Both the position numbers and the translations under genes were made by a program. Under the pieces are notes generated by a model, which saw nothing but the letters and a program-made list of their open reading frames with translations, did no database searches and had not been told where the DNA came from. Shown here piece after piece: positions 1,381-5,212 of a stretch of DNA of 64,000 bases. The stretch lies in assembly GCA_902602415.1 (NCBI GenBank), contig CACKQW010000004.1, forward strand, positions 1 to 64,000, written 5' to 3'. Numbering within the stretch: the first letter of the stretch is position 1; every line of letters begins with the position of its first letter. Source of the stretch: an uncultured Bacteroidota bacterium (GTDB lineage: Bacteria; Bacteroidota; Bacteroidia; Flavobacteriales; Flavobacteriaceae).

Positions 1381-2043
1381 ATGAAAAATTTTATTGCTAC
1401 ATCTATCGGAAAAAAATTTGCAATGGCTCTTTCTGCAATTTTTTTAATGGTATTTCTTTTGCAACACTTTTTGATAAATATAACATCTGTTTTCAGTGCA
1501 GATATCTTTAATTTTCTTTCCCATTTTATGGGCACTAACCCGCTTGTTCAGTTTATCTTACAGCCAATATTAATTGCTGGAGTAATATTTCATTTTGTAA
1601 TGGGATTTTATCTTGAATTTCAAAATAGAAAAGCTTCTAAATATGAGTATCAAAAGGTAAGAGGTGGAGCTAATTCTACTTGGATGAGTAGAAATATGAT
1701 TTGGAGTGGATTAGTAATTCTTTCTTTTCTGGTTCTTCATTTTATTGACTTTTGGTTCCCTGAAATGAATTATAAATATGTAGAGTTTCTTCCCGAAGAT
1801 CCAAACAGATATTATGAGGAGTTAGTTCATAAATTTGAAAATCCAATTAGGGTTTTATTTTACTGTGTATCCTTCATTTTGCTAGCCTTGCACTTATTAC
1901 ATGGTTTTTCATCGTCCCTTAAATCTATGGGAACAAATAAAACTTATGTCTCTGCTGTTAAAAATCTCAGTAATATTTACGCTATTGGTATTCCTGCGGG
2001 ATTTTGTTTTATAGCTATCTTCCACTTATTATCTAACCTATAA
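1381..2043 (+). CDS. sdhC: Succinate dehydrogenase cytochrome b subunit, b558 family
   Basis: This is the membrane anchor of succinate:quinone oxidoreductase (respiratory complex II, TCA cycle), carrying electrons from the SdhAB head to menaquinone via b heme. The 220-residue protein has five hydrophobic helices, at roughly residues 13-35, 56-80, 105-127, 155-175 and 195-217. Histidines suitable as heme ligands lie within them, for example H29. This is the single-anchor b558 architecture used by Bacteroidota instead of separate SdhC and SdhD. It is the first gene of sdhC-sdhA-sdhB. The gap to sdhA is 104 bases and holds a repeat and an internal promoter. The start at 1381 is supported by the immediately preceding promoter, which leaves no room for an earlier start. 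Confidence 0.93.
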   Translation: MKNFIATSIGKKFAMALSAIFLMVFLLQHFLINITSVFSADIFNFLSHFMGTNPLVQFILQPILIAGVIFHFVMGFYLEFQNRKASKYEYQKVRGGANSTWMSRNMIWSGLVILSFLVLHFIDFWFPEMNYKYVEFLPEDPNRYYEELVHKFENPIRVLFYCVSFILLALHLLHGFSSSLKSMGTNKTYVSAVKNLSNIYAIGIPAGFCFIAIFHLLSNL

Positions 2044-2065: not shown

Positions 2066-2087
2066 ACGTGTTACAAACGTGTTACAA
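2066..2087 (+). repeat. Perfect 11-bp tandem repeat upstream of the sdhA fusion
   Basis: ACGTGTTACAA occurs twice, back to back without mismatch, at 2066-2076 and 2077-2087. It lies 60 bases before the start of the integrase-like extension of SdhA. Short direct repeats in front of a recombinase reading frame resemble arm-type integrase sites, but binding is inference. The repeat is seen directly. Confidence 0.9.
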
Positions 2088-2106
2088 TTTTAGATCAATT
2101 ATTATG

Positions 2107-2133
2107 TTTGCTTTTAAATATTTCTTATTTTTG
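2107..2133 (+). promoter_or_regulatory. Internal promoter ahead of the sdhA fusion gene
   Basis: A TATTTTTG -7 box is at 2126-2133 with a TTTG at 2107-2110, a spacing of 15 bases, slightly short for the consensus. The predicted transcript start near 2138 leaves a leader of about 10 bases before ATG 2148. If active, it would transcribe sdhAB independently of sdhC. Confidence 0.5.
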
Positions 2134-2147
2134 TATAAAATTTAGAA

Positions 2148-4463
2148 ATGTCAAAAAAGAAGTTAACCTTCTCCTTAAATTATAGAAAACCAAGGTCACA
2201 GTACAAAGATTCTGATGAGCTAATGATATGTATCCGCTATTACCACAAATGTAATGATACGGATAAAACCAAAATCATCAAAAAAAGTACAGGTGTCAAA
2301 TGCATGTTAAAAGATTGGAATACCGACTGGCATAAAACTAATGATCGTGCTCCAATAAAATCTACAGATCCAAATGCCAAGAAAAAAAATAAAATTTTAA
2401 AAGAAAAAGTCAAAAGCTTTGATATTGATGAGTTATATAGCTCCGTAAAAAATGACTCGTTTTCCCCATATTTAAATTCTAATATTCCTTTTGGTGATTT
2501 GGATAAAAAGTGGACTAATCATAAAAACACCATCAATCTTGTAAGTCCTGCAAACAAAAGGAATATAGATATTATAGTTGTAGGAACAGGGCTGGCTGGA
2601 GGATCTGCCGCTGCTACTTTAGCTGAACTTGGGTACAATGTGAAAGCCTTTTGTTTTCAAGACTCCCCAAGACGAGCGCATTCCATTGCTGCACAGGGGG
2701 GTATTAATGCAGCAAAAAATTACCAAGGAGATGGAGATTCTGTTTATCGACTGTTTTATGATACAGTAAAAGGTGGAGACTATCGATCAAGAGAAGAAAA
2801 TGTTTATCGTCTCGCCGAAGTTTCTGCAAACATTATTGATCAATGCGTAGCTCAAGGCGTTCCTTTTGCTAGAGACTATGGCGGTTTACTAGATAATCGA
2901 TCTTTTGGAGGTGTATTGGTCTCACGAACTTTTTATGCTAAAGGACAAACAGGCCAGCAATTGCTCCTCGGAGCATACTCAGCAATGAATAGACAAATTG
3001 CAAGGGGAAAAATCAAGATGTACAATCGCCACGAGATGTTGGACATAGTTAAGGTAGATGGTAAAGCAAGAGGTATAATTACAAGGAACTTGGTGAATGG
3101 CGAAATTGAAAGACATTCTGCTCATGCTGTTGTATTAGCAAGCGGTGGGTATGGAAATGTATTTTATCTATCAACGAATGCAATGGGTAGTAATGTAACA
3201 GCTGCGTGGAAAGCACATAAAAGAGGAGCTTACTTTGCTAATCCTTGTTTTACCCAAATACACCCTACTTGCATTCCTGTTTCCGGAGATCACCAGTCCA
3301 AGTTAACGCTTATGTCAGAGTCTCTGAGAAATGATGGTAGAATTTGGGTTCCTAAAAAATCTGAAGATGCTAAAGATGTAAGGTCTGGAAAATTAAAACC
3401 AACTAAAATTTTAGAGGAGGACAGAGATTACTTTTTGGAAAGAAGATATCCTGCATTTGGGAACCTCGTGCCCCGAGATGTTGCTTCCAGAGCGGCCAAG
3501 GAAAGATGCGATGCAGGATTTGGAGTAAACAAAACAGGCGAAGCTGTTTATTTGGATTTTGCTTCAGCAATTATTAGGTACGGGAAAGAACAGGCATTGG
3601 TTAACGGGGAGGATGAAAACAATAATGAATTGGTACAAAAACTGGGTAAAGAAATAATTAAGAAAAAATATGGTAATCTATTTCAGATGTATGAAAAAAT
3701 AGTAGATCAGAATCCATATGAAACTCCCATGATGATTTATCCTGCCGTGCACTACACAATGGGTGGTATTTGGGTTGACTATAATCTAATGACCACTGTC
3801 CCTGGGTTATATGCCATTGGAGAAGCAAATTTTTCAGACCATGGAGCAAACAGACTGGGTGCATCTGCACTCATGCAAGGTTTGGCAGATGGTTATTTTG
3901 TTTTACCTTACACGATTGGAGATTACTTATCCAAAGAAATTTCTACTGGGCCAATTCCAAATGACACCGAGGAATTTATAAAAGCTGAAAAAGAAGCCAA
4001 AGAAAAAATTAATGTTTTTATGAATAATAAAGGATCCAAAAGGGTAGATTATTTTCACAAAAAGCTTGGAAAAATTATGTGGAATAAGTGTGGAATGGCT
4101 AGAAACAAAAAAGATCTTGAATCAGCAATTAAAGAAATATCAGCTCTTAGAAAAGATTTCTGGAAAAATGTTAAAGTTCCTGGCTCACAAGATGAGTTTA
4201 ATGAAGAACTTGCCAAGGCTGGAAGAGTTGCGGACTTTTTAGAATTAGGAGAGTTATTTGCGAAAGATGCTTTGGAAAGAGAAGAGTCGTGTGGTGGTCA
4301 TTTTCGTGAGGAGTATCAAACTAATGAAGGAGAAGCCACTAGAAAAAAAGAATTTCAATTTGTCTCAGCTTGGGAATATGTAGGTGAGCCAAAAAATGCA
4401 ATTTTACATAAAGAGCAGTTGAAATATAAAAACATTGAAGTTAAAGAAAGAAGTTATAAATAA
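2148..4463 (+). CDS. sdhA: Succinate dehydrogenase flavoprotein with integrase-like N-terminal extension
   Basis: This is the catalytic FAD subunit of complex II, oxidising succinate to fumarate on the cytoplasmic face. Residues from about 108 onward are a standard Bacteroidota SdhA of about 664 residues. Visible are the FAD fold [11 protein letters not shown] at 146-156, the [12 protein letters not shown] segment expected to bind FAD covalently through His, HPTCIP and RNDGRIW in the capping region, and [11 protein letters not shown] near the C terminus. Relatives begin with a short lead followed by a PEGPLADKW-like motif; here the matching segment [10 protein letters not shown] is preceded by about 107 extra residues. 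No ATG or GTG occurs at the usual start, and the nearest in-frame Met is residue 53. The extension is therefore probably translated. It resembles a tyrosine-recombinase arm-binding domain. SdhB follows five bases after the stop. SdhA identity is certain; the origin of the extension is inferred. Confidence 0.93.
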
Positions 4464-4468
4464 GAGCA

Positions 4469-5212
4469 ATGAGATTGACACTAAAAATCTGGAGACAGAA
4501 AAATTCTGAAACTAAGGGAAAGATTGAAACATATAATATCGATGACATATCTCCTGACATGTCTTTTTTAGAAATGTTAGATGTGTTAAATGCAAAACTC
4601 ATTAATGAAGATCAAGAGCCCGTATCTTTTGATCATGATTGTAGAGAAGGAATATGTGGCTCCTGTTCTTTATTCATTAATGGACGAGCCCATGGTCCTG
4701 ATAGAAGAATTACTACTTGTCAACTTCACATGAGAAAATTTAAAGACGGAGATACTATATATATTGAACCATTTCGCGCAAAAGCATTTCCTGTGATTAA
4801 AGATTTGGTTGTAGATCGAAGCGCTTTTGATAGAATTCAACATGCTGGAGGATATATTTCAATCAACACATCTGGAAATACACAAGATGCAAATGCAACC
4901 CCCGTAAACAAAGAAGATGCTGATGCTGCTTTTGATGCTGCAACTTGTATTGGTTGTGGGGCTTGTGTGGCAACATGTAAAAATTCCTCTGCTATGCTTT
5001 TTGTTGGTGCTAAAGTTTCTCAGTATTCACTATTGCCTCAAGGGCAAACCGAAGCATCTAGAAGAGTTGTTAACATGGTTAATCAAATGGATTTAGAAGG
5101 CTTTGGTAATTGCTCTAATACGGGTGCTTGTGAGGTAGAATGCCCAAAAGGGATTTCACTTGATAATATTGCAAGGATGAATAGGGAGCTAGTTAAAGCA
5201 TCCTTTAAATAA
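4469..5212 (+). CDS. sdhB: Succinate dehydrogenase iron-sulfur subunit
   Basis: This subunit carries electrons from SdhA's FAD to SdhC through three clusters. The N-terminal ferredoxin domain supplies C58, C63, C66 and C84 for the [2Fe-2S] cluster. The C-terminal domain supplies C160, C163, C166 and C225 for [4Fe-4S] and C170, C215 and C221 for [3Fe-4S]. All expected ligands are therefore intact in this 247-residue protein, a normal length for the b558-type enzyme. It is the last gene of the sdh operon, five bases after sdhA, and convergent with the next gene, whose stop lies one base away at 5214. Intact SdhB and SdhC suggest complex II remains functional despite the altered SdhA N terminus. 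Confidence 0.96.

Follow-up and report, generated by a model that had tools for sequence, protein, structure and literature searches.

Enzymes that double as regulators are already known: the trifunctional PutA (proline utilisation A) represses its own genes and switches between a DNA-bound repressor and a membrane-bound enzyme (PMC5293562). Head-to-tail binding of direct repeats, in this case 9-bp repeats, is described for the HTH regulator BldC (PMC5859096). Among the matches listed in a search of the open-access literature, none described a DNA-binding domain on a succinate dehydrogenase. Here we describe a family of succinate dehydrogenase flavoprotein subunits (SdhA) with an added N-terminal domain. 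Beyond the first-pass annotation, which had noticed this fusion, we found that it recurs in many genomes, that the operon is preceded by repeated sites, and that a different domain, HTH_17, is fused to SdhA elsewhere.

The window, a 64,000-nucleotide stretch of one contig, belongs to a 1.27-Mb assembly of 28 contigs that is 74% complete. An open reading frame at 2148-4463 on the plus strand encodes 771 amino acids, comprising SdhA and the roughly 107 extra N-terminal residues that the first-pass annotation had pointed out. It sits between sdhC, which encodes a cytochrome b558-family subunit (1381..2043, plus strand; TIGR02046, 160.5 bits against a cut-off of 96), and sdhB, which encodes the iron-sulphur subunit (4469..5212, plus strand; NF005746, 432 bits against 243), so that both neighbours score above their NCBIfam cut-offs. 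SdhA proper (residues 112-771 and stop; 2481..4463, plus strand) matches PF00890 (E 6.1e-57), PF02910 (E 4.3e-35), and NF005749 (1165 bits, cut-off 866). The alignments of unfused relatives begin at about query residue 96-110, and SdhA proper thus begins where the first-pass annotation had placed the fusion point. At and near the usual start of SdhA, the codons (TTT TCC CCA TAT TTA AAT TCT AAT ATT CCT) include no ATG or GTG, as had been noted, and no TTG either. Ahead of the SdhA core we distinguish an arm-like domain (residues 1-92; 2148..2423, plus strand), supported by Pfam, alignment, AlphaFold2, hhalign, and selection, and a variable linker (residues 93-111; 2424..2480, plus strand), supported by alignment, the full-length model, and selection. 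No catalytic recombinase domain was found among the Pfam matches of the 771-residue protein.

The extra residues had been described as absent from relatives of this SdhA, which is correct in most of the order, where 5 of 395 sampled genomes carry the extension, but not in the genus, where the fusion is present in 13 of 21 genomes, window included. The argument that the fusion is no chance product is strengthened: extensions 73-95% identical in the matches recur in frame with SdhA in 12 further genus genomes and in G024, G109, and G180, which excludes both chance and assembly error. When 60 relatives were compared with the whole query, 11 genus genomes besides the window's matched throughout with no stop, and the match in the twelfth, G009, was cut by a contig end. 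In the same genus, G005 has an SdhA without the extension, G006 and G017 hold the 3' part of SdhA only, and SdhA was not found in G008, G010, G013, G014, or G015 in this comparison. A search of 198 genomes with only the extension gave matches in 17; in 16 of them (13 of the genus, G024, G109, and G180) it is in frame with SdhA, and the seventeenth, G095, has a 534-residue integrase-like frame instead. A profile scan of 84,980 genomes, which followed up the suggestion that the same fusion be sought elsewhere, recovered 54 loci with the extension, 51 of them in one open frame with SdhA; two of the others are cut by a contig end (L089, already inside SdhA, and L101), and in the third, L068, the frame stops just past the SdhA start. 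These records are single-cell genomes and metagenome-assembled genomes (MAGs) labelled Flavobacteriaceae, Formosa, Flavobacterium, Cryomorphaceae, Crocinitomicaceae, Flavobacteriales, or uncultured Bacteroidetes, and from their isolate names the carriers are presumably mostly marine. Most genomes compared are MAGs or single-cell genomes and are incomplete.

Two observations from the scan stand by themselves. The same fused sdhA occurs on two contigs of one MAG (PAZE01000056 and PAZE01000027), the second copy containing undetermined residues. In L068 (5998-10050 of JABHWD010000014.1), the arm-domain frame ends after 131 amino acids, with four sites of the kind described below upstream, and is followed by an sdhC-like remnant and then a different FAD flavoprotein operon; this locus may be an independent module, a relic, or the product of a chimeric contig.

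The proposed resemblance of the extension to an integrase arm-binding domain was supported by profile comparison. Against a profile of 23 Flavobacteriaceae integrase arm domains, hhalign gave a probability of 95.8% (E 7.3e-9), and the 534-residue frame of G095, which reads as a tyrosine integrase, shares the domain at 35% identity (E 3.3e-10). The Pfam side of the check was less favourable: Arm-DNA-bind_5 (PF17293) is the best match for the 107 residues, but at 19.2 bits against a cut-off of 22.6, and by curated score the window copy falls outside the family. Other copies score better, with 27 of 43 aligned members matching Arm-DNA-bind_5 at E ≤ 0.1 (best 8.6e-7). When 126 residues were used, PF13021 (DUF3885) reached E 0.00076 and Arm-DNA-bind_5 E 0.0017, both below cut-off; the weak PF13021 match belongs to the stretch 2148-2525 of the window, and 8 of the 43 members give such a match at E ≤ 0.1. 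Sequence comparison overall supports a relationship of the extension to integrase arm domains. We also considered a viral origin and rejected it, as no relative appeared in IMG/VR contigs or phage records; PHROGs gave one weak match (E 0.069).

Arm domains typically consist of three strands and a helix. AlphaFold2 predicts a beta-beta-beta-alpha arrangement for the N-terminal domain (strands 6-10, 24-34, and 41-53, helix 77-89), with ten-residue pLDDT means of 78-96 over residues 11-90; the full-length model (mean pLDDT 60, below 50 at residues 99-113) was used for the N-terminal domain and linker only. A PDB fold search gave no convincing match (best Z 3.9, with no arm-domain entry among the matches listed), which is not in itself evidence of a new fold, and a PDB sequence search returned two matches, at E 0.92 and E 1.4, including an SdhA chain matched over the end of the linker. 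Alignment A2, which covers 42 of the 54 loci and the window (12 were omitted for X residues, truncation, or near identity), has 26 invariant columns; a further alignment, A3, covers 35 of the 54. Invariant residues include T7, S9-R13, K45, S47-G49, D56-W57, W61-H62, and K80-N81. The linker differs in length and sequence, and its end resembles an ordinary SdhA start. The extension is under purifying selection. Among 12 of the 13 fused genus genomes (the truncated G009 was left out), mean pN and pS over codons 1-90 were 0.12 and 0.82, and the closest pair had dN 0.027 and dS 0.91. Median dN/dS was 0.053 for the domain, 0.17 for the linker, and 0.028 for the SdhA core (12, 40, and 46 unsaturated pairs of 66, respectively).

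Fused sdhA genes are preceded by copies of GTGTTA[C/T]A. The motif was picked from the same loci in which it was counted, with unfused and HTH-fused loci as controls: within 250 nt upstream, 50 of the 53 fused loci carried it, at 133 sites where 2.2 were expected, compared with 1 of 39 unfused loci (1 site against 0.94 expected) and 0 of 8 HTH-fused loci. The median gap between sdhC and sdhA is 144 nt in 51 fused loci and 10 nt in 39 unfused ones, so that the unfused 250-nt stretch is mostly sdhC. Restricted to the gaps of these 51 of the 54 loci (no sdhC was found in L068, L072, or L101), the count was 122 sites against 1.8 in shuffled sequence; at least one site lies in 47 of the 51 gaps, and the hexamer GTGTTA in 50. 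In the three fused loci without upstream sites (L099, L177, and L178), the 300 nt ahead of sdhC contain 2, 5, and 4 copies of GTGTTA, where 0.1-0.3 were expected and at most 1 in 500 shuffles scored as high in each. More generally, the 300 nt before sdhC held 44 copies of GTGTTA in 49 of the 53 arm-fused loci (7.3 expected), 7 in 37 of the 39 unfused loci (5.5 expected), and none in the 8 of 8 HTH-fused loci. The sites persist although the surrounding upstream sequence diverges, and they are missing from L014 and L180, two unfused loci nested within fused groups.

The sites often stand 11-12 bp apart. Between neighbouring same-strand copies, 36 of 82 distances are 11 or 12 bp, and exact 7-mer repeats at 11 and 12 bp occur in 14 and 22 of 50 fused gaps (3.5 expected), as against 2 at 10 bp (3.7 expected). 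Before 19 non-redundant integrases (31 before near copies were removed; stretches measured from the profile match rather than the start codon), such repeats occur at 10, 11, and 12 bp in 10, 5, and 6 stretches, with 0.6-0.9 expected. The integrase repeats have other sequences, for example TGTTGTACCTATGTTGTACC, and no integrase sampled, a set in which the start is misplaced for at least L104 and L111, uses GTGTTACA. Given these different sequences and a commonest spacing of 10 rather than 11-12 bp, the layout is similar to that of integrases but not the same.

In the window, the putative operator consists of two GTGTTACA sites 11 bp apart (2068..2086, plus strand; 2068-2075 and 2079-2086), inside the 104-nt sdhC-sdhA gap, and is supported by the motif statistics of the fused loci. 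The Bacteroidota -7 promoter consensus is TAnnTTTG, and matches to it mark TATTTTTG (2126..2133, plus strand) as a candidate -7 element and TATGTTTG (2103-2110, plus strand) as a second candidate. The sites lie 40-58 bp above TATTTTTG, a position that fits activation as well as repression. In some lineages the sites flank or overlap the candidate element (sites at -61 and -24 with the element at -46 in L070; sites at -49 and -21 with the element at -29 in L085), which suggests repression. For many loci, no candidate -7 element was found.

Paired sites occur 27 times in 14 of the 21 genus genomes, 23 of them before fused sdhA (13 genomes); three of the others lie in the same 259-residue coding frame (G000, G018, and G008) and one in G007. 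Of 38 further fused genomes, 10 contain the paired form, 9 at the sdhA position and one (G249) inside a long coding frame. A wider regulon was considered and set aside: the pairs in G000, G018, G008, and G249 lie in coding frames and are taken as chance or coding constraint, so a pair by itself is no proof. In G007, two TGTAACAC sites stand between a flavodoxin gene and a second SdhA/FrdA-type gene (L170:1130-1211, contig C25), for which no NCBIfam model scored above cut-off among the matches listed; the homologue of this gene in G274, which adjoins a flavodoxin-like frame, has no site. We claim no regulon.

A second fusion shows the same architecture with different parts. In family f6 (eight loci, seven genomes), an HTH_17 domain, above cut-off in all eight with E values from 2.5e-11 to 4.6e-15, replaces the arm domain at the same point of SdhA. 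HTH_17 is the domain type of many excisionases. Upstream of these genes, GACA repeats spaced exactly 10 bp within each cluster reach into the first codons. GACA-N6-GACA occurs 28 times across 8 of 8 HTH loci and in 0 of 53 arm loci and 0 of 39 unfused loci, the latter including three unfused f6 loci (L030, L207, and L209). By eye, no third DNA-binding domain was seen on 12 other long SdhA open frames. Two features of individual f6 loci were also recorded: G290 has two different HTH_17-SdhA genes on two contigs (L210 and L211), reflecting either a mixed bin or paralogues, and a 91-bp exact direct duplication, offset by 127 bp and containing the GACA array, lies upstream of the HTH-sdhA gene of G191 (L208:1052-1269, contig C3).

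The history of the fusions was followed on a tree built from 100 SdhA cores, of which 53 are arm-fused, 39 unfused, and 8 HTH-fused (quick LG+G4; L064 and identical cores left out). The arm label requires 8 changes on this tree, and a single clade of arm fusions was rejected (AU p 0.00034); a single clade of HTH fusions was not rejected (p 0.065). Distances between N-terminal domains correlate with those between cores (Mantel r 0.757, 36 rows). The unfused G005 adjoins fused genus genomes in the tree, has no sites, and keeps an apparent linker end, FSKILKSNVPDGP; the remnant and the lack of sites are the pattern that a loss would leave. As judged from the sequences, the data are best explained if a self-regulating SdhA design arose at least twice.

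We propose that the fused SdhA is probably an autoregulatory flavoprotein, whose arm domain would recognise the repeats and set transcription of sdhAB, most likely by repressing it. By this model, the 5' end of an integrase gene, bringing the arm-binding domain, arm-type sites, and probably a promoter, became joined in front of sdhA. The domain would bind the GTGTTA[C/T]A repeats before sdhA, or before sdhC in a few lineages, perhaps cooperatively, since the sites are often paired. SdhA assembled with SdhB and SdhC in the membrane complex would stay off DNA; surplus SdhA, or SdhA short of partners or cofactor, would bind the sites. As the membrane complex would take SdhA off DNA, an excess of SdhA would close its own promoter, and titration by complex assembly would be the signal. 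Because SdhA functions within a membrane complex, its access to DNA is an assumption of the model, and the sign of regulation is uncertain. In f6, the HTH_17 domain and the 10-bp-spaced GACA repeats may do the same job. It is likely that a core respiratory complex serves as its own transcription factor and that two unrelated DNA-binding domains were captured by SdhA in separate lineages of Flavobacteriales, each with its own direct repeats ahead of the sdh operon.

An alternative is that another regulator binds the sites and the extension serves SdhA otherwise, in stability, assembly, or protein contact, the fusion and sites having arrived in one insertion without working together. Pfam does not assign the window domain, and the repeats could serve a nucleoid or host regulator, yet the sites track the fusion and are absent from unfused loci even within fused groups. 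In three loci they precede sdhC, at a distance from the domain; the HTH_17 fusions show the pattern again with a different domain and repeat; and no Arm-DNA-bind_5 integrase was found in the window's 74%-complete assembly. We regard this explanation as unlikely. We give somewhat less credence still to the idea that the integrase 5' end merely gave sdhA a promoter and start, in which case losing the domain would mean losing the start. The longer gaps of fused loci and the missing start codon at the old SdhA start would fit such a capture, but it does not account for a domain held constrained (dN/dS ~0.05, with the 26 invariant A2 columns) while the linker drifts, for sites kept across divergent upstream sequences, or for G005, which indicates that the domain can be lost.

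That the extension is missing from the mature protein, being untranslated or cut off, is very improbable, because the old start has no ATG, GTG, or TTG and the frame is open and under purifying selection in many genomes. An assembly or binning artefact is hardly credible at all: although the genomes are mostly MAGs or single-cell genomes, 51 of the 54 loci, which come from differently named assemblies, share the same junction.

If autoregulation by the fused SdhA is correct, the 5' end of an integrase gene, with domain and sites together, can be converted into a ready-made regulator, and one central enzyme has been modified in this way with two different domains. Bacteria with small genomes might then need no separate transcription factor to control the TCA cycle, relying on a one-protein feedback loop on complex II. 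With a domain and sites this short, the claim can be tested directly.

Compared with the systems described so far, the HTH_17-SdhA loci, though not the window, resemble BldC targets in having direct repeats in helical phase, an arrangement that head-to-tail binding would require; they differ in a spacing of 10 rather than 9 bp and in the fusion of the domain to an enzyme. Integrases with Arm-DNA-bind_5 (PF17293) share with the window protein a related N-terminal domain and short direct repeats upstream, but fused SdhA has no recombinase domains, its N-terminal domain is joined to SdhA instead, and its repeats differ in sequence and commonest spacing from those before the sampled integrases. 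PutA, on the account cited, has a ribbon-helix-helix domain and other catalytic domains, whereas fused SdhA is a complex II subunit whose added domain is of the arm or HTH_17 type; DNA binding and switching have been demonstrated for PutA and are inferred here for fused SdhA. What the two have in common is a flavin dehydrogenase and an N-terminal domain of DNA-binding type within one chain.
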